From positions 62,001 to 126,000 of the forward strand of contig JAGXKT010000002.1 in NCBI GenBank assembly GCA_018335035.1: a stretch of DNA of 64,000 bases, read 5' to 3'. This document shows positions 41,775-58,115 of this stretch, piece by piece. The position numbers were made by a program, and so were the translations under genes. The notes below the pieces were generated by a model, which was not told the origin of the DNA, searched no databases, and worked only from the letters and a program-made list of their open reading frames with translations. Within the stretch, counting starts at the first letter, position 1. Each line of letters opens with the position of its first letter. This DNA is from Phycisphaerae bacterium. GTDB lineage: Bacteria > Planctomycetota > Phycisphaerae > SM23-33.

Positions 41775-42833
41775 TCAGTTGTCCTGGAGCAGGCGCCGCC
41801 GGATGAACTCGGCGCGGGCCTCGGCGCGCTGCTGGTCGTTCATCTCGTGTCCGCAGACGCGCTGGAGGTGGGCCGGCTGGCTCAGCAGGAACAACTCGTT
41901 GACGATGCGCAGGTCGATCTCCGGCAGCCGCCCGAGGTTCACGCCCAGCCGGACCAGCGACAGCAGGTGCATCGTCTCGTCCGAACTCATCAGCCGGGCC
42001 GCCCGAAGCAACGACAGCGCGCGGTGGATCTTGTCTTCGACGGCCGCCTTCTGGCTCTTCATCAACCCCTCGCGGGCGCGCCGTTCGTACTCGATGAAAT
42101 GCGGCATCGTTTGGCCGAAGAACTCGTCGACGATCTGCTGCTCGGTCTTGCCCAGCGTGGTCTGGTTGGAGATCTGAAAAAAATCGCCGCTGGCTTCGGT
42201 GCCTTCGCCGTAGAGCCCGCGAATCGCCAGGCGCATGTCGCGTGCGGCGCGGAAAACCTTCTGTATCTCGCCGGTCATCTTCAGTGCCGGAAGGTGCAGC
42301 ATCACGCTGACCCGCAGCCCCGTGCCGACGTTCGTCGGACAGGCCGTCAGATAGCCGTACTTGCTGTGAAAGGCGTATTCCACGCTCTGTTCCAGGCGAT
42401 CGTCGATTTGCGTAATCTCCTCGGCCGCTTCCGTCAGCCGGAGCCCGCTGCGCAGCACCTGGATGCGCAGGTGGTCCTCCTCGTTGATCATGATGGCGAC
42501 GGTTTCAGAGCCGCTGATCGCCACGCCGCGCGGGTGGTCGGCCTCGGCATGCTGGCGGGAGACCAGGTGCCGTTCGACGAGCAACTCGCGGTCCAAGGCG
42601 CCGGCCGCGGCGACATTCACGTAGAAGACGTTCTTGGCGATGCCGGCCGCCAGAATCTCGTCGCGAAGGCGCTCGGCGATCTCCCGCTGCTGGGTCGCAT
42701 TACAGCGTGACAGAAACGGTTGCGAGGCCAGGTTCCGCGCCAGGCGGGCACGCGACGAGATGACGACGTCGTGCATGGGTCCGGCGCCCCGAAGCCATTC
42801 ACCGGCGCGTTGCGTCAGGTCGGCGAGTTTCAT
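41775..42833 (-). CDS. mcsB: Protein arginine kinase McsB
   Basis: DVVISSRARLARNLASQPF; INEEDHLRIQVLRSGL; LTACPTNVGTGLRVSVMLHLPAL. Confidence 0.94.
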   Translation of the reverse strand: MKLADLTQRAGEWLRGAGPMHDVVISSRARLARNLASQPFLSRCNATQQREIAERLRDEILAAGIAKNVFYVNVAAAGALDRELLVERHLVSRQHAEADHPRGVAISGSETVAIMINEEDHLRIQVLRSGLRLTEAAEEITQIDDRLEQSVEYAFHSKYGYLTACPTNVGTGLRVSVMLHLPALKMTGEIQKVFRAARDMRLAIRGLYGEGTEASGDFFQISNQTTLGKTEQQIVDEFFGQTMPHFIEYERRAREGLMKSQKAAVEDKIHRALSLLRAARLMSSDETMHLLSLVRLGVNLGRLPEIDLRIVNELFLLSQPAHLQRVCGHEMNDQQRAEARAEFIRRRLLQDN

Positions 42834-43330
42834 TCCTTCTCCATCGCTTTGATGCGGTCTCGCAGGGCGGCGGCGGCTTCGTAATCCTCGCGGGCGACGG
42901 CGTCCTTCAACTCGCCGCGGAGGCGGAGGATCGCCGTTTGCTTCTTCTGCGTGCTGGCTGCGCGGCTGGGCACCTTGCCCAGGTGCTGGGTGGCGCCCTC
43001 GTGGGCGCGGGCCAGAAACGGCTCGAGCGCGGCTGAGAACGCGTCGTAGTCGTTCGGGCAGCCGAGCACGCCGTGCTTCCGAAACGTGTTGAAGCTCAAC
43101 CCGCAGGCGTCGCACACCAGGTCGCCGGCCTCGTCGTCGCACTCGGCGTCCGACGACTGGAGGATGAAATCCTCGAGAAGCTGGCTGATGGGGATGTTCG
43201 CCTTCACGGTGATCCCCTCGTTGGCGGCGCACTGCTCGCACAGATGCTTCTCGATCTTCTCACCGTCGATGATCTCCGTCAGATGGACGGTGGCGGGGCG
43301 GTTGTGGCATCTGTCGCACGGGTGCTTCAT
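42830..43330 (-). CDS. mcsA: McsA-like UVR-motif zinc protein
   Basis: CDRCHNRPATVHLTEI…HLCEQCA; CDACGLSFNTFRKHGVLGCPNDY; C-terminal UVR motif; overlaps mcsB. Confidence 0.93.
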   Translation of the reverse strand: MKHPCDRCHNRPATVHLTEIIDGEKIEKHLCEQCAANEGITVKANIPISQLLEDFILQSSDAECDDEAGDLVCDACGLSFNTFRKHGVLGCPNDYDAFSAALEPFLARAHEGATQHLGKVPSRAASTQKKQTAILRLRGELKDAVAREDYEAAAALRDRIKAMEKE

Positions 43331-43407: not shown

Positions 43408-44136
43408 CTACTCGACGCGTCCGATGCGGATATCCAGGTCCTCCCGCCGTTCGAGGCGATCCTTGGCGCCGTCCTTGATCCAGAGGATGCGGTCGGATCG
43501 GGCGAGCATGTTGTGGTCGTGCGTGGCGGTGATGACGGTGACGCCGTGGTTGTCGCACAGCCCGCGCAGCGTATTGATGATTTCCTCGCCGGTGTGGAGG
43601 TCGAGGTTCGCCGTCGGCTCGTCGGCCAGCATGATCGTCGGGTTCATCGCCAGGGCGCGCGCGATGGCGACGCGCTGCTGCTGCCCGCCGGACAGCTCGC
43701 CGGGCCGGTGGTCGAGACGATGACCGAGCCCGACTTCGGTGAGGACCTCGGCCGCCCGGTCGGCGGAGGCCCTGTGGTTGGCTCCGCTGAGCAATACGGG
43801 CAGCATCACGTTGCGCAGGGCACTCAGCGCGGGAATGAGGTTGAACGCCTGGAAGATGTATCCGATGTGGTGATTGCGGATGTATGCCAGTTCCGCGCTG
43901 GACTTCTTCGTCAGGTCCACTCCCGAGATGGTCACCGTGCCTTCGGTCGGACGATCCAGCGCGCCGATCATGTTGAACAGCGTGCTCTTGCCCGAGCCGC
44001 TCGGACCCATGACCGAGAGGTACTCACCGTGACGGACGTCCAGGTCCATGTCCCGCAGGGCGTAGATCTCCTGCCCGCCCATGCGGTAGATCTTGCTCAA
44101 CTCGCGACACGCGATGATGACTTCGTTGCTGCTCAT
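43408..44136 (-). CDS. ABC transporter ATP-binding protein (LolD/MacB type)
   Basis: MGPSGSGKST, LSGGQQQRVAIARAL, ADEPTANLD. Confidence 0.94.
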   Translation of the reverse strand: MSSNEVIIACRELSKIYRMGGQEIYALRDMDLDVRHGEYLSVMGPSGSGKSTLFNMIGALDRPTEGTVTISGVDLTKKSSAELAYIRNHHIGYIFQAFNLIPALSALRNVMLPVLLSGANHRASADRAAEVLTEVGLGHRLDHRPGELSGGQQQRVAIARALAMNPTIMLADEPTANLDLHTGEEIINTLRGLCDNHGVTVITATHDHNMLARSDRILWIKDGAKDRLERREDLDIRIGRVE

Positions 44137-44143
44137 GATTTGC

Positions 44144-46165
44144 TCAGAACGGGATCTTGATAACCGCCTTGGCCAGGAAGTTCACGCCGACGCCCAGGAC
44201 GGTCACCAGACCCATGCCACAGGCGAAGCCGGCCGCGACGACCGGCACGTATTGGCGCCATTTCAGGCCCATCTTTCGTTCGAAATAGAACCGGCTGATC
44301 AGTGCGCCGATGAACTGCGGAATCACCACGTGCGGCAAGGTCTGGTTCAGCCCACGGACCACGCCGTAGACCAGCATGACCGGCAGGCGGATCATCCACA
44401 GGACCGCAAACAGCACCACGCCGAAGCCCAGGCCGCTGAGGAGGAAATCGGGGCGGAACGCCTTCTCGAACGCGCTGAACCGCCCCAGCGTGGAACTCTG
44501 GATAATGCACTGGTTGGCCGCCCACAACTCCCACATCCGCTCGGCGAACGGATACTCCGGTCCGGGCACCGGCGCCATCGCCCAGATGAACTGGCTGAAC
44601 AGCACGGAGGAGACGATGATGATCGGCACCAGCAGCAGGTCCGTCTTCCAGATCGACCAGAACCGCGTGCCCGTCAGCTCCGCCTGGCGATAGAACATCG
44701 TCCGCCGGCCGTAATCGGCCACCGGAACCGGCAGGAACCACACGTCCACATCGCCGCTGTAGCCGGAGAGGATAAACGCCGCCTCCTTGACCATGGGCAC
44801 CTGGACGACCTGCCCGGCCATACCCTCCAGCCGTGCCGTGACGTAGCTGATCAGGGGCGTGTAGAGGAACGCGAAGAAGAACAGGACGGCCATCACGCCC
44901 GGATGCCAGTCGATCAGGAACCCGCTGACGACGATGTAGGCCGTTGAGGTGAACAGGTAGGCGCCGATGATGGCCCAGGTGGGCAGGTCGCCGCGTCCTT
45001 CGGGAACCGTCGGCCCCGTTTCCTGAGACAGGCGCTGGTCGCGCTGCTCGCGGATCTGCTTGCGGCGCTTCCGAAGGGAGCGGAAGACCTGGTAGAAGCC
45101 GACCAGTGCCAAGGCCCCGGCTACGCCCAGTGTGAAGCTGAAGTAGAAGTCGATGTTCGCGCTGAACAGGGTCTTGACGGTGTCGTCGCCGGGCGACCAG
45201 GACTTGATGATGCCGGCGTTGTAGAGCGTCGGATTGAGGATGGCGGTGATGATGAAGCCCACGAAGCTGCCGACCATCGCGAAGAACGGCAGCACCATGC
45301 CGAGCATGAACTGCCCGAGGTTGAGACTGATTCCCGTCGCTACGGCCGGCAGGATGTTCGCCGTCTTGGGCGTCCAGTCGGCAAACGGGATGGGCAGGAT
45401 GGTGATCGGCGTGTCGAACAGCGCGCCCGTCACAGCCGGCAGGGCCATATACACCGCCCCGAACGCCAGGCCCAGCACGCCGCCGATGCTGAAGATGCGC
45501 CATCGCCAGTTGCCTTCGCGGCTGCGCCCCTGGGCGGTTTCCTCCGTCTGCTGTTCGGCCAGGGCGGCGATGCCCTGCGCCCCGATCGGGGCCATGGGGA
45601 ACGGCAGCTTCTCGATGTCGCTGGCCAGGCGGAACAGCCCGTAGGTCAGGAACGTCGAGTTGATCCGCCCCAAAACCGTGCGGAAGACGAACAGCCCGAT
45701 GGCGGCGTACCAGGCGGGGTGGAAGAAGTTCCGCTCGGCCAGCACGTCGCGGTCGCTGGGGGCGACCCACCAGGGAATGTGCTCGGCGACGCCCATGCCG
45801 GTGGCCGCATTGGACGTGCGGAAGAACTGGAACCACAGCAGCCCCTTCATGGGCTGGTTCATCACCATCGCGCCGCCCATGGCGGCACCGGCCATGTAGA
45901 ACAGAATGAAGATTTCCGGCAGCTTCAGGCGTTTATGGGCGCGGCGTGCGACCTCGATGAACAGGATGACCGTGACCCACTGGGCGGCGGGGCCGACGCC
46001 CTGGCCCGCCAGCAGTTGCATGTACATCGCGCCGGGGACCATCAGCAGGGCGATGAACAGCGCGCCGACCAGAGAGGTCCAACTGAAGCCCTCGCCAAAG
46101 GTCGAGGGCACCTCCATCAGGGAGCGGTACTGTTCGATCTCACGGTCGTATCGGGTGGTGCTCAC
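44144..46165 (-). CDS. Large polytopic membrane protein, DUF6785/OPT-transporter-like
   Basis: Many TM helices; GEGFSWTSLVGALFIALLMVPGAMYMQLLAG; PQFIGALISRFYFERKMGLKWRQYVPVVAAGFACGMGL. Confidence 0.72.
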   Translation of the reverse strand: MSTTRYDREIEQYRSLMEVPSTFGEGFSWTSLVGALFIALLMVPGAMYMQLLAGQGVGPAAQWVTVILFIEVARRAHKRLKLPEIFILFYMAGAAMGGAMVMNQPMKGLLWFQFFRTSNAATGMGVAEHIPWWVAPSDRDVLAERNFFHPAWYAAIGLFVFRTVLGRINSTFLTYGLFRLASDIEKLPFPMAPIGAQGIAALAEQQTEETAQGRSREGNWRWRIFSIGGVLGLAFGAVYMALPAVTGALFDTPITILPIPFADWTPKTANILPAVATGISLNLGQFMLGMVLPFFAMVGSFVGFIITAILNPTLYNAGIIKSWSPGDDTVKTLFSANIDFYFSFTLGVAGALALVGFYQVFRSLRKRRKQIREQRDQRLSQETGPTVPEGRGDLPTWAIIGAYLFTSTAYIVVSGFLIDWHPGVMAVLFFFAFLYTPLISYVTARLEGMAGQVVQVPMVKEAAFILSGYSGDVDVWFLPVPVADYGRRTMFYRQAELTGTRFWSIWKTDLLLVPIIIVSSVLFSQFIWAMAPVPGPEYPFAERMWELWAANQCIIQSSTLGRFSAFEKAFRPDFLLSGLGFGVVLFAVLWMIRLPVMLVYGVVRGLNQTLPHVVIPQFIGALISRFYFERKMGLKWRQYVPVVAAGFACGMGLVTVLGVGVNFLAKAVIKIPF

Positions 46166-49100
46166 GCGTCCGACTCCTGTTCGTCATTCTGGCGGGTCAG
46201 CGTGTCTGGCGAGGTGGGGGCGATGTTGTCCGCGTCGATGTGTTCCACGGGTAACTCGTCCCACGATTCGAGCGTCTTGCGGCGATAGCTCTCCGTGACG
46301 TCTTCAGGCAGGGACCGCCAGATCAGCAGTTGCTTGCGCAGATCGTTGATGAACACGCGATTGCTGCGCTGCCAGTCGCCGTTGGCGCCGCTGATGCGGT
46401 AGATGAGGATGCGCACTTCGTCGATGCCTTCAATCTCGCTGGGGCGGCTCAGCAGAACGAAGCGCTGGTTGACGCCCAGATCGAACGGCGCCAGGGCGAC
46501 GGTCGCGTCGAATGCGAGCATGTCGTTGTCCTGCTGGCGGAAGATGCGGCATCGCGTCGTGGCGAATTTGCCCAGCGAAGCGTCCCGATAATTGTCGAAG
46601 TGCTCCTTAAGGAAACTCACCACACCGGTAATGTCGTAGGCCGAAACCGTAAACGGGAATACCAGGTCGTAAAGGTTCCCGCTGGGCTTGGGGATGCGCC
46701 ACTGACGCTGAATCCCCGGATTCGCTGAGCGCGAGGCCTTCAGGGCGGGGTAGATCGTCGAGATCATCACCGTGCCCATCACGATCAGAATGGTTACGAT
46801 CGCGTTGGTCGAACTGTAATTCATCGTCGGAACGGCGACGTAGCCCAATTCCCCGAGGAAGCCCAGAACGCGCGCGACGAGCTGGCCCAGCAGGTAGCCG
46901 CCCATGCCCCCGACCACGGCGTAGATCGACGCCTCGGCGAAAAACAGTCCGGCCACGTGCGGCGGGGCCAGCCCCAGTGAACTGAACGTGTAGATCTCCT
47001 TCTCGCGGTCGGAGACGCTGCCCAGCATCGTCGCGAAAACGATCATGCCGCCGAGCACGACGGGAATAAACAGGTCGCGAACGCCGCTGGCCTCGGTCAG
47101 CGAGGTGAACAACAGGCGATGGACCGCGCCCTGCCGACCGGCATACGTCGGAATCTTGACGAGCTTGGCCGTCTCTTCGGCGATTTCCCGCAACGCGTCG
47201 GCCTCGTGCGGATAGAGGGTCATCGTGACGATCTTGTTGTCCATCTGACGCGCCGTCTCGGCGGGAATGACGGCAACCGTGTCCACGCCGTAGGGCAGGA
47301 ACTGGGCGCTTTCGGCCTGGGTGGTCTCAAACAGCGAGGTGGTGGGTTCCTCCTCCAGCGCCTCGGCCGAGCCGCCCGCCGAACTCTGGTAGTTGACCGG
47401 CAGCGAGCTGGTGCCGTCGAGCATCGTGTGTCCGGACAGGGCATCGGCGACCCTGCCGGCGAAGATCACACGCTGGTCGCCCAGGCGGACGGGCGTGCCG
47501 ATGTCGTCGTCGGTCAGCTTCAGTTCGCCGCAAATCGCAGTCGTGAAGAACGCCCCGCCCGCTTCCAGACGCCGGGCAAGCACCTCCTGGCGTGTCATTT
47601 CCGGCTTGTCTTCGGCCTGGCGTTGCCGGTTCTCATCCCGCTCGGCCTCGGTCAGCGCGAGGGGATCGAGCAGCCGCGCCAAGGCCGGCTGACGCATGAC
47701 GTCCCGGGCGTCGAGGCCCACGGCCGCGTTGAGCAGCACCCGCTGGTCCGTGCCCGCGACGTTGGCCTGGAACTCGTGGGTCGTCCCGCCCTGCATGGCC
47801 TTTCTGGCTTCGGCGGCTGTGGGGGAGACCCAGTAGCGGGGGACGACATCGGCCTGTCCGCGGAAGCGCCCGCGCAGCATGTCGAACGTGCCGCGGGCGA
47901 TGGGCCCGAGCAACTGGTTCCGGACGAGGATGCGCGGCGGACCGTTCAGCGGGCCCTCGTACGTCTCCCGGACGCCGTAACGCTTGCCGAACGAGGCGAA
48001 CGTCAGGATGGTGAACGTCAGCAACACGACGGTGGCCGCGGTCAGGAATGTCCGCAGGGGGCGCCGCCGCATCGTCGAGATGCCCATGTTCACCGCGGCG
48101 AGCATCGTGCTGAGCCGTGAGACATCGGCGCTGTGGACCGTGCTGGCCAGGCCTTGCATCCGCTTGATCTCCGTCTGGAGCTTGCGAACCATGATGAAAA
48201 TCACCAGGCAGCTCAGCAGGATGATCGCGAACGCCAGGAAGATGACAATCGGTGTCGACGCGATGCGAAACGCCGGGTTGACGAAGTACAGCACCGCGAA
48301 CGTCATAACGAAGAAGACGGTGAACCAGCCGATTTGTCGGTAGATGTGCGGCGTGCCGACGAGCAGACGCTCCAGGGCGTAGGCGAACGGCATCGCCAGA
48401 AGCAGCAGCAGCACGACGGCCGTGATGAGGTCGTTCAGCGTGTCGACGATGGGGGGGTAGGCACAGCGGCTTATTGCCGCTGAGGACGCCGCATCGCCGG
48501 CGATCTTATCGGCCCAGTGCGTCCGTTCGATCGTTCGGTATTCCTCAGGCACGTCCTCGCCGAGCGGCGCGTCCAAGCCGTGCTGATCGAGCCACTTCCG
48601 TGCCTTCAACGCCTTGTCGAGGCGGTCGTCGGCATCCTGCCAGATCTCCATGAGCGACGGTTGCTTGATATGGTTCGCTTCCAGCAAGCCGAACAGGCGA
48701 TAGCGGTTCAGGTTCAGCAGGTCCTCGGCCGTGGAGAACGGCGTGGACGGGTGGGCGAATTGGTCGGCGACGGTCATGCCGATGCCCTTGTGGCCCTTTT
48801 CGGTGTGCGAGTTGTTGAGGACGACGACGGCGGCCTTGTTGAAGACCTTCATGCCGTCGGCGTCGTAGGGGGCGTAGACGGTCACGATGTCGTCGAGCTC
48901 GCAGACCAGGTGGCGATCGGCGCGGAACGGGGCCGTCGAGCGGGCCCGCATGGCCTTGGTGGCGATGTTGCGCCGGCGGAAGCCGTAGCCCACGAACGAC
49001 AGGCCCCGGCAGTTGAACTGCACCACCTTCGACAGGTCGCCCTGAAGGACGGGGATGCTGTCCATTGCCGTCGCCGCCCGGATGATGCCACGCGACTGGT

Positions 49101-51741
49101 GCTGCTGCCTGGCTTCAGAGCCGGCCGTGATCGGCGGGCGGTCATAGCTGGCGGCGAAGACGACGCACTTCTCGTAGTAGTCCTGCAAGTGGACCGGCAG
49201 CGTGTACGTGCCGTTGATGCTGGTCTTGGTCACCAGCAGGTGGTTGTAGCCCGGGGGCACCTTTCCCAGCGCGCCGACGTTCCACTGACCCTCGACCCAG
49301 GGCACGACGGTGACCACGGCGTCGCGGACCGGCAGGTCGGCCATGGCGCTGCCCGCTCCGGCGCGCTTGATCGACGGGCCGGCGACGCGGTCCCTCTCGT
49401 CCCACTCGGCTTCCGCGTAGCGGGGATCGGGCGCGACCTTGGACTTCATTGCGGCGAGGCGCCCCGTGTTCGCCAGCTCGCCGGTCAGCCGCCCCAACTC
49501 CCGCACCTGCGGCGCCAAGCGGCCCAGGTCCATCGTTGGCAGCGTATCGACGGGCTGGCCCTCGCGCGCCCGGCGGTCCATGCTGGTGACGGCCACGACG
49601 TTCAAGACGCCGAAGATGCGCGCCGCGCTGCTCGCATCGGCGAATAGTGCCGGCGCAAACGTTCTGTTGGGGAACCGCCGCTTGAACGCGTCGTACTGGA
49701 GATGGTCGAAGGCGGTCGGGTCGGCTTCGTAGATCTCCTCGGCCACGTTGAACAGCACGTCGTACTCGCCTCGGGTGTCTCTGCCCAGCGGAAGGGAGTC
49801 GTCGCCGTGGACCAGCGCCCATTTCGTGCCGTCGTCGCCGAGGTTGACGCCGATGTGCAGAAGGACCGTATTGGCCGAGGTGCCGACGGCTTCGCGCAAC
49901 GCCACGCCCTGGCGCATGCGCTGCTGCGCCCGCTGAAGCACGTCACGTCGTTCGCGACACAAGCGGCGCGTGTGTACGGCGAGTTGATGGTAGCGCTGCG
50001 GCGTGCGCTCGAGCAGCGCGTCGCGGGTACGCTGTTCCTTGTGCCCCTCGAACATCTCGCGCCGCACGGCGACGTCGAGAATGTCACGCTCCTCGTGGAG
50101 GACGCGCTCGACACTGTTCCAGGCCAGGTCCTCGATGGACAGATCCCGCTCCTGTTCGGCCTTGTCGGCGATGGTCCGGTCGACGCGCTGAAGTTCCCTG
50201 TTCTTCTCGGCGATGCGCTGTGCGAGCCGATCGGCCTGCTCGCCCGCGTCGTCCGCCTGGTCGGCCTGCTGTTCCTGCAGGTCCGCGAGTTGCTCCTCGA
50301 TCTTGTTCCTGTCCTGCCGAAGTTCGCGGAGATCGACGCGCAGCGGGCGGAGCTGCTCGAGTACTTCGCCGTCGATGTTCTGCGCTTCGTCGCGGAGTTG
50401 CAGCAGGACACGGTGGTGCCGGTCGAGATTCTTCGACTCCTCGCTGAAGATGTACAACCGCGCGATCTCGTCGGTCAGCGACTGGGGTACCTCCTCGCCG
50501 GCGGCGCGCAACTCCTCGAGCCGCTCGTGCTTGTCCCATCGCTCGATCATGCGGGCGGCGATCGCGTCCAGCGCCGACCAGAACCCCAGCTCGCGATCGT
50601 ACATCTCAAGACGCTGTTCCAGCGTATCTTCGCCGACGCCCTTCATCTGCCGGTAAATGGCGCCGTAGAAGGCCCGCGCCCCGGCGAGGTTCTGCGCCAC
50701 GCCGTCGAAGAAGCATACGATCACGTCTCGCTTGGGGCGGTCCTGGCTGAGCGTCTCGATGATCGACAGCAGGGCGGCACAGTTCGACGCCGGCCGGGCG
50801 CCGGCAGAGCGTTCCGGCACCTCCGAGTAACTGTCCAGGGGGGCCGACAGCAGCAGCGCCTGGGGGCGTTCGTCGCCGAATTCGGGGGTTCGACCCCGCA
50901 AAACGCCCACCACGTTCCGCCCGAGAAGCTCCCGCCATTCACAGGCCGCCTTAATGGTCACCTGCTGCGCATCGCGCAGGCCGATTCGCTCGGCGACGGC
51001 ATGCGGCACGTAGAACCTCGGCAGGTTGGCCGGGACGTTGACGTGATGCCACGCCCGCCCGGCCGGGGTGTCGTCGTCCGGGCCGATGAAGATCACCGCC
51101 CGGGCCCCCAGCCCGAAGGCCGACAGCCAGCGATCCGCCGCATGGTAATCCATCACGACGATCTTGCCCTTGACCAGCCCCGGGTAGTCCTCCAGCTTGC
51201 CGCCTGCGACGTAGACGGCTTGGCCGGTCAGTCCCTCGGCCGGCGTGACCGACGCCTGCGTGACGTTCGGGCGGACGGGATGGATGTCGCCCATGCCGGC
51301 GACCTTTTGCCCGTCGATGTACAACTCGCACTGGGTCGTGACCGGCTGGACAACGGGGAACTCCTGGATGTAGACCTCGTCGATGCCGCTGGCCGTCAGC
51401 GCCTTCTCGACGTAGCGGCTGGCGCGGCGGCTGCCGTCTTCATAGCCGGCCAGACGGTGGGCGGCGCCGTCCATCAGCGCCCGCAGGTGCAACTGGAAGC
51501 GACGATGGTCGGGCGCGGCATCCTCGGGGACGGCCTGACGTATGGTCTCGGTCCAGGCCTCGCGGTTCAGCCAGTCCCGCGCGGCGGCGCGCTGCCGGGG
51601 GGTGATGCGGGCGGCCTCGACGGCGGCCTTGGCCGCTTTCTTCTGCTCCTCGGTCTGCTCGGCCGTCCCGCAGCCGGACAGGCCGGCACACGCGACGGTC
51701 GCTGCAAGGACCATGACGGCGGCTTTGAGCATCCTACGCAT
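46162..51741 (-). CDS. Lipoprotein-type M28-peptidase-like domain fused to FtsX-like ABC permease (1859 aa)
   Basis: Lipobox LSGC; PA/M28-like N-terminal region with degenerate motifs; long coiled coil; TM cluster; FtsX-like terminal module (RDLFIPVVLGGMIVFATMLGSVSDREKEIYTFSSLGLAPPHVAGLFFAEASIYA). Confidence 0.82.
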   Translation of the reverse strand: MRRMLKAAVMVLAATVACAGLSGCGTAEQTEEQKKAAKAAVEAARITPRQRAAARDWLNREAWTETIRQAVPEDAAPDHRRFQLHLRALMDGAAHRLAGYEDGSRRASRYVEKALTASGIDEVYIQEFPVVQPVTTQCELYIDGQKVAGMGDIHPVRPNVTQASVTPAEGLTGQAVYVAGGKLEDYPGLVKGKIVVMDYHAADRWLSAFGLGARAVIFIGPDDDTPAGRAWHHVNVPANLPRFYVPHAVAERIGLRDAQQVTIKAACEWRELLGRNVVGVLRGRTPEFGDERPQALLLSAPLDSYSEVPERSAGARPASNCAALLSIIETLSQDRPKRDVIVCFFDGVAQNLAGARAFYGAIYRQMKGVGEDTLEQRLEMYDRELGFWSALDAIAARMIERWDKHERLEELRAAGEEVPQSLTDEIARLYIFSEESKNLDRHHRVLLQLRDEAQNIDGEVLEQLRPLRVDLRELRQDRNKIEEQLADLQEQQADQADDAGEQADRLAQRIAEKNRELQRVDRTIADKAEQERDLSIEDLAWNSVERVLHEERDILDVAVRREMFEGHKEQRTRDALLERTPQRYHQLAVHTRRLCRERRDVLQRAQQRMRQGVALREAVGTSANTVLLHIGVNLGDDGTKWALVHGDDSLPLGRDTRGEYDVLFNVAEEIYEADPTAFDHLQYDAFKRRFPNRTFAPALFADASSAARIFGVLNVVAVTSMDRRAREGQPVDTLPTMDLGRLAPQVRELGRLTGELANTGRLAAMKSKVAPDPRYAEAEWDERDRVAGPSIKRAGAGSAMADLPVRDAVVTVVPWVEGQWNVGALGKVPPGYNHLLVTKTSINGTYTLPVHLQDYYEKCVVFAASYDRPPITAGSEARQQHQSRGIIRAATAMDSIPVLQGDLSKVVQFNCRGLSFVGYGFRRRNIATKAMRARSTAPFRADRHLVCELDDIVTVYAPYDADGMKVFNKAAVVVLNNSHTEKGHKGIGMTVADQFAHPSTPFSTAEDLLNLNRYRLFGLLEANHIKQPSLMEIWQDADDRLDKALKARKWLDQHGLDAPLGEDVPEEYRTIERTHWADKIAGDAASSAAISRCAYPPIVDTLNDLITAVVLLLLLAMPFAYALERLLVGTPHIYRQIGWFTVFFVMTFAVLYFVNPAFRIASTPIVIFLAFAIILLSCLVIFIMVRKLQTEIKRMQGLASTVHSADVSRLSTMLAAVNMGISTMRRRPLRTFLTAATVVLLTFTILTFASFGKRYGVRETYEGPLNGPPRILVRNQLLGPIARGTFDMLRGRFRGQADVVPRYWVSPTAAEARKAMQGGTTHEFQANVAGTDQRVLLNAAVGLDARDVMRQPALARLLDPLALTEAERDENRQRQAEDKPEMTRQEVLARRLEAGGAFFTTAICGELKLTDDDIGTPVRLGDQRVIFAGRVADALSGHTMLDGTSSLPVNYQSSAGGSAEALEEEPTTSLFETTQAESAQFLPYGVDTVAVIPAETARQMDNKIVTMTLYPHEADALREIAEETAKLVKIPTYAGRQGAVHRLLFTSLTEASGVRDLFIPVVLGGMIVFATMLGSVSDREKEIYTFSSLGLAPPHVAGLFFAEASIYAVVGGMGGYLLGQLVARVLGFLGELGYVAVPTMNYSSTNAIVTILIVMGTVMISTIYPALKASRSANPGIQRQWRIPKPSGNLYDLVFPFTVSAYDITGVVSFLKEHFDNYRDASLGKFATTRCRIFRQQDNDMLAFDATVALAPFDLGVNQRFVLLSRPSEIEGIDEVRILIYRISGANGDWQRSNRVFINDLRKQLLIWRSLPEDVTESYRRKTLESWDELPVEHIDADNIAPTSPDTLTRQNDEQESDA

Positions 51742-52582
51742 TCTCCTGGCCTCCGATGGAACCGGCCTCGACGGTGACTTCGTCGCGGTTGGCCAGACGT
51801 TCGATCATGCCGTCGCGAATCCACATGATGCGATCGGCCATGCCGATCAGGCGATGGTCGTGCGTGACACACAGGACGGTCACGCCGCGCTCGACGTTCA
51901 ACCGGCGCAGGATCTTGTGGATCTCGTCGCCGGTCTTGAGGTCCAGGTTGCCCGTCGGCTCGTCGCACAGCAACACGCTGGGCAGGTTTGCCATGGACCG
52001 GGCGATCGCCGTACGCTGTTGCTGACCGCCGGACATCTCGATGGGCTTGTGAAACCAACGTTCCTTCAGGCCTACGAGGTCGAGCAGTTCGAGCCCGCGC
52101 TCGCGGGCCTCGTCGGCGTCGACGCCGGCAAACGCCATCGGAACGGTCACATTTTCCAGGCAGGTCATGTACTGAACGAGGTTGTACGTCTGAAAAATGT
52201 ACCCGATCTTGCGGCAGCGGAGAAACGCCAGCTCAATGGCGTTGAGTTGGGCGACGTCGACTTCGTCGATGAACACGCGGCCTTCGGTGGGGCTGTCCAA
52301 CCCGCCGACCATGTTGAAAAACGTGCTCTTGCCCGAGCCGGAAGGCCCCAGAATGATGATGAACTCGCCGCGGTACAGTTCCACGTCGATGCCCTGGAGG
52401 GCGTGCGTGACGACTTCGCCCATCCGGTAGGACTTCTTCAGCCCGCGCGTGCGGATAATGACGGCGCGCTGCGAGGCGTCGTTCGCCTGCGGCGGCGTGT
52501 GGGACTTCGGCGTCTGCGTCTCCGGTCCGGCGGGAATGTCCCGGGACGAGTCGCTCGGCAGGTTGGTGTCGGGGTCAGGCAT
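51734..52582 (-). CDS. ABC transporter ATP-binding protein (LolD/MacB type)
   Basis: LGPSGSGKSTFFN, MSGGQQQRTAIARSM, CDEPTGNLD. Confidence 0.94.
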   Translation of the reverse strand: MPDPDTNLPSDSSRDIPAGPETQTPKSHTPPQANDASQRAVIIRTRGLKKSYRMGEVVTHALQGIDVELYRGEFIIILGPSGSGKSTFFNMVGGLDSPTEGRVFIDEVDVAQLNAIELAFLRCRKIGYIFQTYNLVQYMTCLENVTVPMAFAGVDADEARERGLELLDLVGLKERWFHKPIEMSGGQQQRTAIARSMANLPSVLLCDEPTGNLDLKTGDEIHKILRRLNVERGVTVLCVTHDHRLIGMADRIMWIRDGMIERLANRDEVTVEAGSIGGQENA

Positions 52583-52603
52583 TCCTGTGATCCACAAGCT
52601 CGA

Positions 52604-55336
52604 TTACTCGATGCGCATCGCCTCCATCGGGGCCAGGCGAGCGGCCACCCAGGCGGGGTACACCGCCGCCAGTGCCGATATCACCACGCCGATGACAAAG
52701 GACAGCCCGGCCGTGGCCAGAAGGTCCACCGCCGGCAACTGCTGCAACGCCGTCGTGCCGTATTGAAGCGCGGTTCGCAAGATGCCCAGAACCAGTCCAA
52801 GCACCAGGCCGATGATGCTGCCGGCGACCCCTTGCAGGCACGATTCCAGCACGAAGTTAATCATGATGAACCCGTCCGTGGCACCGAGGCACTTCATCGT
52901 GGCGATTTCGCGGAATCGTTCGGTGACGCTCATCAGCATCGCGTTGGCGATTCCCACGACGCAGACGATGAAGCTGACGACCAGCAGCCAGATCGTGCGT
53001 GCCGAGAAGCCCATGAAGCCCGTTTTGACCGTCAGGGCGGAGACCTCGGCCTCCGTCTCGGCCAGTTCGCGTGCGGCCAATTGCCGCTCGGCGACCTGTT
53101 CGACCCGCTCGGCGGTCAGGCCCAACGGCTTCAGCGAGGCGACTTTGCCGAGCAGGTCGTTGACCCACTCCGCCTCGGCTTTGTCCGTCGCGACACGCAT
53201 CAGCGCATCGGCGGTGACATCGTCTTCGGACAGGTCGTTCCTGTGCTTGGCCAGCTCCTCGCGCAGCAACGGAGCCGTCACGAGCGTGCGCAGGCGCTCG
53301 GCGTCGCGCTTGAGCCCGACGTGTTCCTGTATCTTCCGGAGGTCCTTGTCGCCCATGTGAAATTCGGCGCGAGCCAGGGCGGCCTGTGCCTTCTCGTCGG
53401 CGGCCGCCAGCAGGTCCACGGGCGAACGCTCGGCAAGCAGCGCCGGTTCATCGGACGCGGCATCGCCCCGCAGGGCGGCGATGGCTTCGGCATGGCCGGC
53501 TGCAATACGCGCGTGCAGTGCCGGCGCGCGGCGGCGATCGTCGAGGTAGTGCTCGAACAGCCGATACCCCGCCTCCTGCGGTACCGCCGCGCCGAGCCAC
53601 CTCTCGGCGAAGCGTACGTGTTGCGCCATCCAGCCGGGCAGCGGCAGTGTCACGCCCTGCTCGCGCAGGGCCTCGCGCAGCGCGGCGGCGGGATCGGCGG
53701 CCGGGAACGCACCGTAGTTGTCCAGGTGTTGTTCGGGCGTCATGGACGCGAGAAAATCCAGATAGCTTTGCGTCCGCGCCGGCAGCTTGACGAGCAAGGT
53801 CATCTGCGCGTCGGTCAATTCGCCCCAGTTCCGGTATTCGCGGCGTTCAGCGTCGCCCAACGATCCGGACGTGAACCGCTCGGCGACCTGGTCGGCCGTG
53901 AGCGGCTTGCAAAGCCGCAGTATCCAACGGCGGAACGTTTTCGCCGTGTCGGTGGCGGGGGGAGTGTCCGGGAGCATCTCGAAAAGAATCTGCCCCGGCT
54001 CGACGGTGTCGCCCTCGGCCGCGTGCCAGGAGATGATCGTCCCCTTGCTCATCGTGTTGACCTTGGTCATGACGACGGGCACGACGTTCTCGGGCCGAGC
54101 GGCTTGCCGCGCCGCGTCCGCCTCGAGTGACTCGAGGTACGCCTCGACGCCGGCGTCACTCTCGCTCAGGTAGGCGACCGGCTCATGGACGGCGACGGTC
54201 TGTCCGGCGCCGGCGACGATCTTCGCCAGTCGCCCGCGCCGTGCGGCTTCGACCGTAACGGCGGCCTTGTCCGTCTCGGTCAGGGCGGCCTGGTGAATCC
54301 GCTCGGTGGAGAGGGACGCGCCGCCAAGGCCGCGCGCCTTGTCGGTCAAGGAAACAAGCCAGTCGGCGCCGCTCGACGAACTGACCTCCTCCAGTAGCGA
54401 CCGGGCGTTGACCTCGTGCGGTTCGATATTGCGCCGCTCAGCGAGCCGTGCCTTGAGCAGAGACGAGTTTAACGCCGCTTCGATCCGCTGGGCGTCGTGG
54501 GCGTAAGCGGCCTCGCGCTGCACCGTCTGCAGGTCTTCCCGCTGGATGCGGAAGCCCACCGCGTCGGCCGACAGCGCCGCGTGCAGCGCGTCGGCATCCG
54601 TCGTGGCCAGAACATCGAGCGGCTCGCGCTCATGGAGAAGCCGGCCGGGCTGGTTGAGCGTTTCGATGGCCTCGGCGTGTCCGGCGATGACGCGTTCGCG
54701 CCACGCGCGGGTGGTCCACCAGTCGCGGAGGAAGCCCTCAAAGGCGTCGAGCGACGTCGGCAGCGGCTTGCCGATCTCGGAGAGGTAGTCCGTCATCCGT
54801 TTCAGCGCGTCCTCGTTGAGCCGCGCGGTGTCGGCGTCGGACGCCTCGTGATCGATCAGGGCGCCGAACATGCGCGGTCCGCTGTGCCGGGTTCCGTTCA
54901 GGGCGCGGCGGCGGCGGGCCTCGGTCATCTGCGTGAAGAACGTCAGGTACGTCTGCTGGCGACGGGCGACATCGTGCAACTGCCCGAGCTGCTCGTCGTT
55001 CAGTTCCGCCCAGGCGCGCATCTCGTTCCAGCGCGGCCCGCCGCGCTCGGCACGGGCGATCGTGCCGCTCAATTCCGCCAGGTTCGGCGGTTCGGCGAGC
55101 CGGCCCACCCAGAACTGCAGCATCTTCCGCGGGGCGACCTCCGCCTCAAGTGCATCGGCCACACGCCGCGTGATCACGCTCTCGGAGAGCATGGTCATCA
55201 GAAACGCGGTCGCCAGCGCGATAATGCCCACCGTGATGGCCGCCCGGAACAGGCGGTACTTGACGCCGCTGAGCACGAGCTCCACGCAACGCCGTAGCGG
55301 GGGGCGGTGCTGCCGTTTGACCTCGACGGACTTCAT
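52604..55336 (-). CDS. FtsX/MacB-like permease with a very large duplicated extracytoplasmic region (910 aa)
   Basis: N-terminal TM; C-terminal FtsX module (IANAMLMSVTERFREIATMKCLGATDGFIMINFVLES…YPAWVAARLAPMEAMR). Confidence 0.88.
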   Translation of the reverse strand: MKSVEVKRQHRPPLRRCVELVLSGVKYRLFRAAITVGIIALATAFLMTMLSESVITRRVADALEAEVAPRKMLQFWVGRLAEPPNLAELSGTIARAERGGPRWNEMRAWAELNDEQLGQLHDVARRQQTYLTFFTQMTEARRRRALNGTRHSGPRMFGALIDHEASDADTARLNEDALKRMTDYLSEIGKPLPTSLDAFEGFLRDWWTTRAWRERVIAGHAEAIETLNQPGRLLHEREPLDVLATTDADALHAALSADAVGFRIQREDLQTVQREAAYAHDAQRIEAALNSSLLKARLAERRNIEPHEVNARSLLEEVSSSSGADWLVSLTDKARGLGGASLSTERIHQAALTETDKAAVTVEAARRGRLAKIVAGAGQTVAVHEPVAYLSESDAGVEAYLESLEADAARQAARPENVVPVVMTKVNTMSKGTIISWHAAEGDTVEPGQILFEMLPDTPPATDTAKTFRRWILRLCKPLTADQVAERFTSGSLGDAERREYRNWGELTDAQMTLLVKLPARTQSYLDFLASMTPEQHLDNYGAFPAADPAAALREALREQGVTLPLPGWMAQHVRFAERWLGAAVPQEAGYRLFEHYLDDRRRAPALHARIAAGHAEAIAALRGDAASDEPALLAERSPVDLLAAADEKAQAALARAEFHMGDKDLRKIQEHVGLKRDAERLRTLVTAPLLREELAKHRNDLSEDDVTADALMRVATDKAEAEWVNDLLGKVASLKPLGLTAERVEQVAERQLAARELAETEAEVSALTVKTGFMGFSARTIWLLVVSFIVCVVGIANAMLMSVTERFREIATMKCLGATDGFIMINFVLESCLQGVAGSIIGLVLGLVLGILRTALQYGTTALQQLPAVDLLATAGLSFVIGVVISALAAVYPAWVAARLAPMEAMRIE

Positions 55337-55351
55337 GCTCTGTCGCTTTCC

Positions 55352-55750
55352 TTACTTCGTGCCCACGATGGCCACGAGGCCGCGCTGAGTCAACTGCTTC
55401 AGGAATGTCGTCACCGATAGCTGCGCTTCGCGAAACGTTAGCTTATGGACGGCGGCGAACTTTTCAATGATTTCCTCCACGGTGCGCCGTCCGTCGCACA
55501 GCTCCAGGACCTCGCGACCGGGCGCGTCCAGTTCCACCTGCCGATGCGACGAGAACGGGATGATCCAGCTGATCGGCGGCACGAGCCACTTCGGGCGGTT
55601 CAGCGGCACGCGCACGCGACAGCCGCCGTCGCGGAAATCGTGAACCTCCATCGCCTCATTGCGGTACGCCACGGCCGCCAGAAGTTGCTCGGCGGGGTAA
55701 GCCGTCTTGGCCTTCGCGCTGGCGCGATTGTCTCGTCGGCTGCGCTTCAT
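55352..55750 (-). CDS. PqqD-like protein
   Basis: VELDAPGREVLELCDGRRTVEEIIEKFAAVHKLTFREAQLSVTTFLKQLTQRGLVAIVG. Confidence 0.78.
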   Translation of the reverse strand: MKRSRRDNRASAKAKTAYPAEQLLAAVAYRNEAMEVHDFRDGGCRVRVPLNRPKWLVPPISWIIPFSSHRQVELDAPGREVLELCDGRRTVEEIIEKFAAVHKLTFREAQLSVTTFLKQLTQRGLVAIVGTK

Positions 55751-56637
55751 GGGGCGGATGTTACCACATCCGGGACGTCCCGGCAGCAGCGGACCTCCAG
55801 TGCGCCGGGGAGCGTCAGCTCCGCCTGGCGCCGAATCTGCGTGAGCACGATGTGATAGACGCGCCCTTCGGAAGGGCACTGCCACGCCTGCTCGTACCGC
55901 ACGCGCTTGTACCCGCGCAGCGACGCGATCGGCGTGACCTTGGCCCAACTGAGCAGCTCGTAGCCGCGATGACCGTTGACGTGCACCAGCCCCTCGCGCG
56001 CCAGCCGGTGGTCTTCCGGCTTCTGGCCGCGCAGCCAGTCGCGCAGCGACCCGTCGAGCCAGTGCTCGGGCATCGCCAGGCGCTCGACGGTCAGTTCCGG
56101 GCTGCGTCGCTCGGACGTTTGGAACTCCCACGTCACCCGCCCGACGTCCGCGCGGCATTCGTGCAGGCCGAACTGCCGATCCAGCGTGATGCTCAACCCC
56201 ATCGCCTGCCAGAGCCGCGGGTCCGCGTCACGGGCCTCGGCCTCGAACGACTCGAGAACACGACGCTGGAGGGCGTCGTCGCGTGTGTCCGGCCAGATGA
56301 GGACGGCCTCGACGAGCCAGCGGCGGTCGTTGAAGAATCGTGCGACGTGGACGACTTGTCCGTCGGGCGCGTCACGGACGATGCCGTGCCACGGATCGGG
56401 GGGATTGGGCAGGTCTCGGATCTCCGTACGCGTCTGCTTGCTCGTGCGGCGGCGGTGCTTGTCCAGCATGCCGTCAAGATTGGGCTTGCGCGTCAATTGC
56501 AGCCACTTGACATCGAGCCGGTGGTATCGTCGATCGGAGAAGGTCAGCCGCGCCGGTTCGTTGGGTCCGCTGATCCGCGCCAGTTCCCACGCGGCCGGGT
56601 GGTCCAGCGCCAGCCCGCGCCAGCACGTGCGGTCCAT
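55747..56637 (-). CDS. Hypothetical protein (~296 aa) overlapping the PqqD-like gene
   Basis: 4-bp overlap with the PqqD-like start; MDRTCWRGLALDHPAAWELARISGPNEPARLTFSDRRYHRLDVKWLQLTR; no family recognised. Confidence 0.75.
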   Translation of the reverse strand: MDRTCWRGLALDHPAAWELARISGPNEPARLTFSDRRYHRLDVKWLQLTRKPNLDGMLDKHRRRTSKQTRTEIRDLPNPPDPWHGIVRDAPDGQVVHVARFFNDRRWLVEAVLIWPDTRDDALQRRVLESFEAEARDADPRLWQAMGLSITLDRQFGLHECRADVGRVTWEFQTSERRSPELTVERLAMPEHWLDGSLRDWLRGQKPEDHRLAREGLVHVNGHRGYELLSWAKVTPIASLRGYKRVRYEQAWQCPSEGRVYHIVLTQIRRQAELTLPGALEVRCCRDVPDVVTSAP

Positions 56638-56804: not shown

Positions 56805-58115
56805 CTACAGGTATGCGTTGACGATGTTCTCGAGCATCTCGACGCGCCCGGAGGCGTTGGCGTCGGGGGTGCCCTTGGCGGCCATGTACTCGGCCAGCTC
56901 GGCCATCGTCTTGTTGCCCGCCTCGATCTCGGCGCCGAGCCCGCTATCCCAGCTAACGTAGCGGTCCTTGACGAACGCGTCCAGAGCGCCGTCGGCGCGA
57001 ATCGCCGCGGCGATCTTGAGCCCGCGGGCAAAGGCGTCCATCGCCCCGACGTGAGCGTGGACGAGGTCGATCGGTTCAAAACTTTCCCGCGCGACGTGCG
57101 CGTCGAAGTTCAGCCCCCCCGTGGTAAATCCGCCGGCCGAGAGGATCGTCAGCATCGCCCGCGTCGCCTCGTATAGGTCCGTGGGGAACTGGTCGGTGTC
57201 CCAGCCCAGAAGCAGGTCACCCCGGTTGGCGTCCACGGACCCGAGAATGCGATTGGCCGCGGCATACTCAAGCTCATGCTGGAAGGTATGCCCCGCCAGC
57301 GTCGCGTGGTTCGACTCAATGTTCAGCTTGAAGTGCTCCACCAGGCCGTACTTCTGGAGGAAGGCGTAGCACGCGGCCGCATCGCTGTCGTATTGGTGCT
57401 TCGTCGGTTCCTTCGGCTTCGGCTCGATGTAGAACTGCCCCTCGAAGCCGATGGCATGCTTGTGCTCGACGGCCAGATGCAGCAGCCGGGCCATGTGGTC
57501 CAGCTCCCGGCCCATGTCGGTGTTCAGCAGCGACTTGTATCCCTCGCGCCCGCCCCAGAAGACATACCCCTGTGCGCCGAGCCGCTTGGCGACCTCCATC
57601 GCCTTGGCGATCTGCGCCGCGGCGTAGGCGAACACGTCGGCGTTGGGGCTCGTGCCCGCTCCGTGCATGAAGCGCGGATTGGCGAACAGGTTGGCCGTGC
57701 CCCACAGCGGCGTGATGCCCGTGCGTTCCTGCTCGGCCGCCAGCAGCGTGACGATCTCGTCAAGGTTCTCGTTGGTCTCGGCGAGCGTGTCGCCCTCGGG
57801 GGCCACGTCGCGGTCGTGGAAGCAGTAGAACTGGACGCCGAGCTTCTCGCACAACTCGAAGCACGCGGTGACCTTGTTGCGCGCGGCTTGCATCGGGTCG
57901 TCGTCCGCCCACGGCATCTGCCGCGTCTCCGTGCCGAACGGATCGTCGCCGCCGTTGCAGAAACTGTGCCAGTAGGCGACCGAGAACCGCAGGTGCTCCC
58001 GCATGGGCTTGCCCTCGACGCGTTCGTCGGGGTTATAGTGCTTGAACGCCAGCGGCTTCTTCGACTCGGGCCCCTCGTAGGCCACCTTCTCAACGCCGGG
58101 AAACGCGCGATCCAT
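56805..58115 (-). CDS. xylA: Xylose isomerase
   Basis: [77 protein letters not shown]. Confidence 0.97.

Follow-up and report, generated by a model that had tools for sequence, protein, structure and literature searches.

What holds two unlike FtsX-type permeases, two ATPases, a member of a second transporter superfamily and a PqqD-like protein together in a single operon? The question is raised by a stretch of 64,000 nucleotides, here called the window, from an uncultured Phycisphaerae bacterium (GenBank assembly GCA_018335035.1, contig JAGXKT010000002.1, positions 62,001 to 126,000), in which seven minus-strand genes run head to tail from 43408 to 56637. They encode Unk1, the PqqD-like protein, the permease F ('LipFtsX'), the ATP-binding cassette (ABC) ATPase ATP1, a permease with an M28-like domain (M28FtsX), a membrane protein of the OPT superfamily, and a second ATPase, ATP2. 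As argued below, these proteins very probably form one functional system with the wider OPT clade of the operon's own member and with DUF6785, a Pfam family to which no function has been assigned. A literature search, with subscription papers outside its reach, found no published description of this gene set or of DUF6785/6784.

Gene order and co-occurrence

The first line of evidence is the conservation of the gene set itself, for which 60 related genomes were searched and 17 relative loci were fetched for comparison of gene order. The order Unk1-PqqD-FtsX-ATPase-M28/FtsX-OPT-ATPase is kept in about 10 genomes that belong to the same GTDB family, amid unrelated flanks, and also in one class-level relative. 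Each of the seven genes was matched in 10 to 17 of the 17 relative loci, and set against the flanks of the window this means that the cluster is not due to chance. A wider scan, with one genome per species and the C-terminal half of M28FtsX as query, gave 264 confirmed matches, the best 80 of which (75 with room downstream) are the basis of the locus counts given here. These 80 fall within the Phycisphaerae, other Planctomycetota, Verrucomicrobia, Lentisphaerae, Kiritimatiellae, Armatimonadota, Zipacnadia/WS1, Poribacteria, Latescibacterota, Omnitrophota, Elusimicrobia and TA06; most of the genomes are metagenome-assembled, and gene calls in the relatives are based on open reading frames (ORFs). 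Gene maps show that outside the family the operon comes apart into a module [Unk1-PqqD-FtsX-ATP1] and a module [M28FtsX-OPT(-ATP2)], which occur in either order and recur over about ten phyla. An OPT gene lies directly 3' of M28FtsX in 56 of the 75 loci with room, and an OPT or DUF6785 gene is close to it in 75 of the 80.

The second line of evidence is the co-occurrence of these genes regardless of linkage. In a survey of 392 planctomycete genomes, each at least 85% complete, the C-terminal domain of M28FtsX served as the marker and was present in 36 genomes carrying 15 family labels. The OPT clade was found in 35 of these 36 genomes as against none of the 356 others (p 3e-49), DUF6785 in 34 as against a single marginal match (p 2e-45), and Unk1 in 26 as against none (p 9e-33); few candidates per genome were scored in the large samples, so that absences, those of Unk1 above all, reflect lower-bound counts. 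Genome G124 has no member of the OPT clade, but DUF6785 genes stand beside its M28FtsX copies. Within the bacterium's own GTDB family, every one of the 14 M28FtsX-bearing genomes has DUF6785, as do 4 of the 21 others; three of these four exceptions have fragments of M28FtsX at the ends of contigs, the remaining genome is 69% complete, and once the fragments are counted the figures become 17/17 versus 1/18. Where Unk1 lies away from M28FtsX, it is usually in an Unk1-PqqD-FtsX-ATPase operon of its own in the same planctomycete genome, and such unlinked operons turned up only in genomes with M28FtsX. In other phyla, Unk1 is encoded elsewhere in 15 of the 20 genomes that lack it at the M28FtsX locus. 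Mirror-tree correlations of 0.66-0.96 were not used as evidence, since shared species history alone yields such values.

An earlier note, made from the letters of the window, had proposed that the seven genes form one undescribed system, with conservation of gene order as the check. That proposal is borne out by the order kept across the family and by modules that co-occur even when unlinked, and the literature search brought no match to set against it. What the earlier note overlooked is the unlinked DUF6785 family.

The permeases and their ATPases

M28FtsX is built from an N-terminal lipobox (LSGC), a PA and M28-like region, a coiled coil, a beta-rich stretch, three transmembrane (TM) helices, an FtsX unit, one of whose last three TM helices falls below the hydropathy threshold, and a cytoplasmic C-terminal domain whose AlphaFold2 (AF2) model gave weak helix-grip or PsbP-like fold matches only. 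A profile of its head matched aminopeptidases (5.7e-19), nicastrin (1.2e-7) and also nicalin. The zinc-ligand motifs (HxD...D...EE...H) are degenerate in all aligned relatives, in that HxD is reduced to xxD and EE is absent, and the aspartate at the bridging position, kept by many relatives, is lost in the protein of the window. The M28-like domain is a catalytically degenerate, nicastrin-like pseudopeptidase; an active peptidase was rejected because the zinc ligands are gone. Nicastrin and nicalin share with it the PA and M28-like fold of the M28 aminopeptidases and the loss of the zinc ligands, whereas the present domain is bacterial and fused to an FtsX permease. The nicastrin domain is the substrate-contacting ectodomain of a membrane complex. 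In two relatives (L052:2614-8343 and L054:6626-12541) the M28-like head contains an insert that resembles two LysM repeats, a motif of peptidoglycan binding; the pattern was seen by eye and is unscored. In a third (L048:3296-6442), an ORF of 1048 amino acids (aa) with LptC- and LptD_N-like matches lies directly 5' of M28FtsX.

The other permease, F, has exactly four predicted TM helices: one (residues 32-50) precedes a large extracytoplasmic region and three (784-802, 834-852 and 872-890) follow it. Its size varies among lineages: in the Phycisphaerae, Verrucomicrobia and Kiritimatiellae it carries a helical ectodomain (about 490-590 aa), whereas in the remaining phyla it consists of little more than the four TM helices (about 240-330 aa). 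In the window the ectodomain has been duplicated in tandem (80/273 identical, 29%, z=32), and residues 354-457 are identical at 57 of 104 positions (55%) to the linker-plus-lipoyl unit of the tandem-lipoyl E2 of the same genome. This segment was not seen in the relatives. The duplication and the lipoyl insert are a local oddity and not part of the core, and the idea that the lipoyl motif is a built-in MacA/HlyD adaptor was rejected, as it is a window-specific insertion of the E2 lipoyl and linker sequence.

Both ATPases have intact Walker A, signature (MSGGQ in ATP1), Walker B and H-loop motifs, and the ATG at 52582 is the more likely start of ATP1 than the TTG at 52597. ATPases that follow OPT genes form a clade of their own, ATP2 (19/21 tips, support 0.92); ATP1 and ATP2 are separate paralogues of old origin, each in a fixed position, and where a locus has just one ATPase both permeases are still there.

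Probable OPT-type partners

The OPT proteins of these loci form a separate clade, of which 14 of 23 members match Pfam OPT and for which no NCBIfam match was found. Like the OPT/YSL transporters, the operon's protein has an OPT domain above the Pfam cut-off and about 670 aa, but this clade is always tied to an ABC-type complex, and DUF6785 is a distant relation only. DUF6785 adjoins M28FtsX in several loci and is mostly unlinked elsewhere, with 1-19 copies per planctomycete genome, while three genomes of Zipacnadia/Armatimonadota type have at least 27; the bacterium of the window has two unlinked copies (L142, G000:C39:223092-225152; L143, C66:6381-8390). Comparison of the DUF6785 and OPT profiles (hhalign 95%, E 3e-8) indicates that DUF6785 is a distant OPT relative. 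It is the most informative component of the system. Among the matches listed near DUF6785 are GH57, MGH1-like, GH5-like, sulfatase, BNR, acetyl xylan esterase and aldolase-SDR, with fewer in a far control; the numbers are small, and as a clue to a DUF6785 substrate these carbohydrate neighbours are only a hint. Single examples of DUF6785 beside such genes (aldolase-SDR, GH5-like, acetyl xylan esterase, BNR) are L191:4186-6306, L196:2004-4823, L201:4086-6158 and L187:3949-5586.

The predicted cytoplasmic proteins

Unk1 is predicted to be a cytoplasmic tandem PsbP/Mog1-fold protein without a signal peptide. Its high-confidence AF2 model (predicted local distance difference test, pLDDT, 93) consists of two PsbP/Mog1-type domains in tandem, and Foldseek matched it best to TplEi (2.4e-5), then to PsbP (2.7e-4) and to DcrB, EagT6 and SciW (2e-3 to 3e-3). 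In 21 loci Unk1 stands directly before PqqD, and in L067 the two are fused; therefore these proteins are likely to work jointly in the cytoplasm. Among Armatimonadota-type genomes (loci L144-L155), Unk1 lies, in the majority of 14 cases, between a RodA/FtsW gene and a gene for a secreted tetratricopeptide repeat (TPR) protein, a trio that hints, in that lineage, at the cell envelope.

A candidate mechanism and its rivals

With respect to function, the operon may encode one inner-membrane complex of the type VII class (LolCDE/MacB-type, mechanotransmission), in which F and M28FtsX would form a heterodimer driven by ATP1 together with ATP2 or, in loci without ATP2, by a homodimer of ATP1. One heteromeric complex is simpler than two because the ATPases are old paralogues in fixed positions and single-ATPase loci keep both permeases. 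M28FtsX would add the C-terminal domain on the cytoplasmic side and, outside, a giant head whose dead aminopeptidase fold would bind a ligand and not cut it, while Unk1 and the PqqD-like protein would serve as a cytoplasmic adaptor. The complex would work obligatorily with OPT-superfamily proteins, namely the OPT protein of the operon and, usually, several unlinked DUF6785 paralogues. Motion of the FtsX stalks powered by ATP might then be coupled to capture or release of substrate by the head and to its movement through the OPT-type partner. We would hold this mechanism with confidence somewhat short of even; the heterodimer, physical contact with OPT and DUF6785 proteins, a transport function, and any direction or substrate of transport are what we infer from the patterns above.

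As to class, both permeases contain FtsX, and the separate ATPases are LolD/FtsE-like with intact motifs; permeases of the TM1-ectodomain-TM2-4 form with a separate LolD-like ATPase are shared with LolCDE, MacB, FtsEX and YbbAP-TesA. Moreover, LolCDE itself places two different FtsX-type permeases on one ATPase dimer, so that the pairing of two permeases with two ATPases, which the earlier note had thought anomalous, has a precedent. The differences lie in a permease of 1,859 aa with a pseudopeptidase head, three extra TM helices and a cytoplasmic C-terminal domain, in obligatory OPT-superfamily partners, in the presence of PqqD and Unk1, and in the lack of LolA/B, MacA, TolC, EnvC and TesA. 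The operon is not that of a known member: lolCE scores 55 bits against 362, the two ATPases reach 237 and 217 bits (ATP1 the latter) with the LolD model, whose cut-off is 307.75, and the operon has no LolA/B; nor is it of the MacB kind, as the ATPases are separate and no HlyD/MacA or TolC gene is in the operon.

Several points weigh against this reading. The evidence comes from sequence and predicted structure, and co-occurrence alone is no proof of contact, with its absences being provisional. OPT proteins are secondary transporters, marked in the OPT family by proton-coupled import of peptides or metal chelates, and normally do not need an ATPase; the homology between DUF6785 and OPT comes from a single profile alignment of about 200 columns. 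Five of the 80 loci, two of them truncated, have no OPT or DUF6785 neighbour; Unk1 was not matched in 10 of the 36 genomes with M28FtsX; and no substrate gene is consistently linked to the system.

A bolder version is a new kind of ATP-energised transport system in which many interchangeable OPT-superfamily (DUF6785) membrane proteins, scattered over the genome, share a single FtsX-type ABC engine whose receptor head is nicastrin-like; such an arrangement, like that of the energy-coupling factor (ECF) transporters, would have evolved independently and spread across about ten phyla. The analogy is with the layout of the group II ECF transporters, in which likewise one conserved ABC module with two ATPases goes with many unlinked, amplified membrane partners present only together with it, and the distribution of the genes fits it; there is no sequence relation, FtsX-type permeases would take the place of EcfT and OPT-type partners that of the S components, and the sharing is putative. 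Perhaps the module is a shared energising device of this kind, though we consider the full proposal rather unlikely. If it were true, major uncultured phyla would have a new way to power transport. Even the grouping alone defines a multi-phylum envelope machine, testable in the few cultured hosts, links two membrane families not known to cooperate (ATP-driven complexes of the FtsX type and transporters of the OPT type), and provides a concrete partner for DUF6785, an amplified family of unknown function.

An improbable alternative is that the machine inserts, folds or extracts OPT and DUF6785 polytopic proteins, and that Unk1 has a role like that of the EagR chaperones, which PMC7773334 describes as holding transmembrane segments. 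The fold of Unk1 resembles EagT6/SciW as well as DcrB/PsbP, and an assembly factor would suit an amplified DUF6785 family that is, but for one marginal match, confined to genomes with the machine; yet the PsbP/Mog1 fold is generic and the Unk1 match modest, OPT proteins in other settings need no such factor to fold, and the one-to-one pairing of genes with OPT suggests a subunit. Equally improbable is an envelope regulator that, like FtsEX, uses conformational changes powered by ATP as a signal to enzymes of peptidoglycan or the envelope; OPT and DUF6785 would then be structural partners and not transporters. FtsEX is of the same ABC type (PMC11627006), and both the RodA/FtsW-Unk1-TPR trio and the LysM-like inserts, a pattern seen by eye, could be read in this way; the RodA link is limited to one lineage, however, no hydrolase or adaptor is linked, and up to 27 DUF6785 paralogues would be unaccounted for.

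Slightly less probable still is that the giant head extracts a lipid, a lipoprotein or a hydrophobic compound in the manner of LolCDE or YbbAP, or senses peptides as BceAB does. F does resemble LolC/E and the ATPases LolD, and YbbAP-TesA is a precedent, in that extraction of hydrophobic compounds by this ABC type is described in PMC12646458. Against this, the operon has no LolA/LolB, TesA, membrane fusion protein, outer-membrane factor or two-component gene, and the obligatory OPT/DUF6785 partners would be left unexplained.

The presence of a PqqD domain, and of an M28-like domain beside an exporter-type permease, brings to mind a system that exports a ribosomally made peptide and uses PqqD as the leader-binding protein, or RRE (the recognition element of ribosomally synthesised and post-translationally modified peptides). 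The PqqD-like protein does give the domain matches of such systems, but the linkage that defines them was not found. As the earlier note had observed for the operon, radical SAM and precursor genes are missing: no ORF with the radical-SAM motif (CxxxCxxC) lies within 10 kb of any of the 80 loci, and their flanks yielded no conserved small ORF and no precursor peptide. The protein is also the sole PqqD in the genome, the peptidase is dead, and many M28FtsX-OPT loci have no PqqD nearby, so that a link to peptide maturation through PqqD is not supported and the exporter is very unlikely. Accidental adjacency of unrelated genes has next to no probability, being refuted for the M28FtsX-OPT and M28FtsX-Unk1 pairings by the conservation of gene order and by co-occurrence without linkage (p as low as 3e-49).

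Structure of the locus and neighbouring genes

All ORFs of the operon were located where the earlier note had placed them, and its coordinates and junctions agree. Unk1 and PqqD overlap by 4 bp at 55747/55750 (ATGA), M28FtsX and OPT by 4 bp at 46162/46165, and ATP1 and M28FtsX by 8 bp at 51734/51741; the remaining intergenic gaps are 6-15 bp. Family calls were made at Pfam gathering cut-offs, which all the families named earlier exceed, Unk1 being unmatched.

Features of the seven-gene operon (window coordinates)
Feature	Position	Strand	Remarks
Unk1 (U)	55747..56637	-	296 aa; unmatched in Pfam
PqqD-like protein (Q)	55352..55750	-	132 aa; Pfam PqqD 5.7e-10, 39.8 bits (cut-off 23.4)
FtsX-type permease F ('LipFtsX')	52604..55336	-	910 aa; Pfam FtsX 1.4e-16, lolCE 5.7e-15
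Lipoyl-domain-derived segment of F, residues 354-457	53966..54277	-	between two ectodomain copies
ATPase ATP1 (LolD/MacB-type)	51734..52597	-	Pfam ABC_tran
M28FtsX (M)	46162..51741	-	1859 aa; Pfam FtsX; Pfam M28 24.8 bits (cut-off 21.3)
PA + M28-like pseudopeptidase domain of M28FtsX	50617..51504	-	profile matches
Cytoplasmic C-terminal domain of M28FtsX, hallmark APFDLGV domain	46165..46728	-	AF2 pLDDT 91
OPT-superfamily membrane protein (O)	44144..46165	-	673 aa; Pfam OPT 2.4e-9, 36.9 bits (cut-off 25.8)
ATPase ATP2 (LolD-type), ATP1 paralogue	43408..44136	-	Pfam ABC_tran

Upstream, on the same strand and about 170 bp from the operon, lies a gene for xylose isomerase XylA (56805-58115); downstream are genes for an McsA-like protein (UVR motif) and the protein arginine kinase McsB (41775-43330). 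The edges of the operon are sharp because neither XylA nor McsB has a homologue in any of the 17 relative loci (0/17), XylA thus not being kept beside the operon. Two long antisense open frames face the operon on the plus strand (51542-54130, 862 aa, and 49702-51777, 691 aa) and are probably shadows of the coding sequence on the opposite strand.

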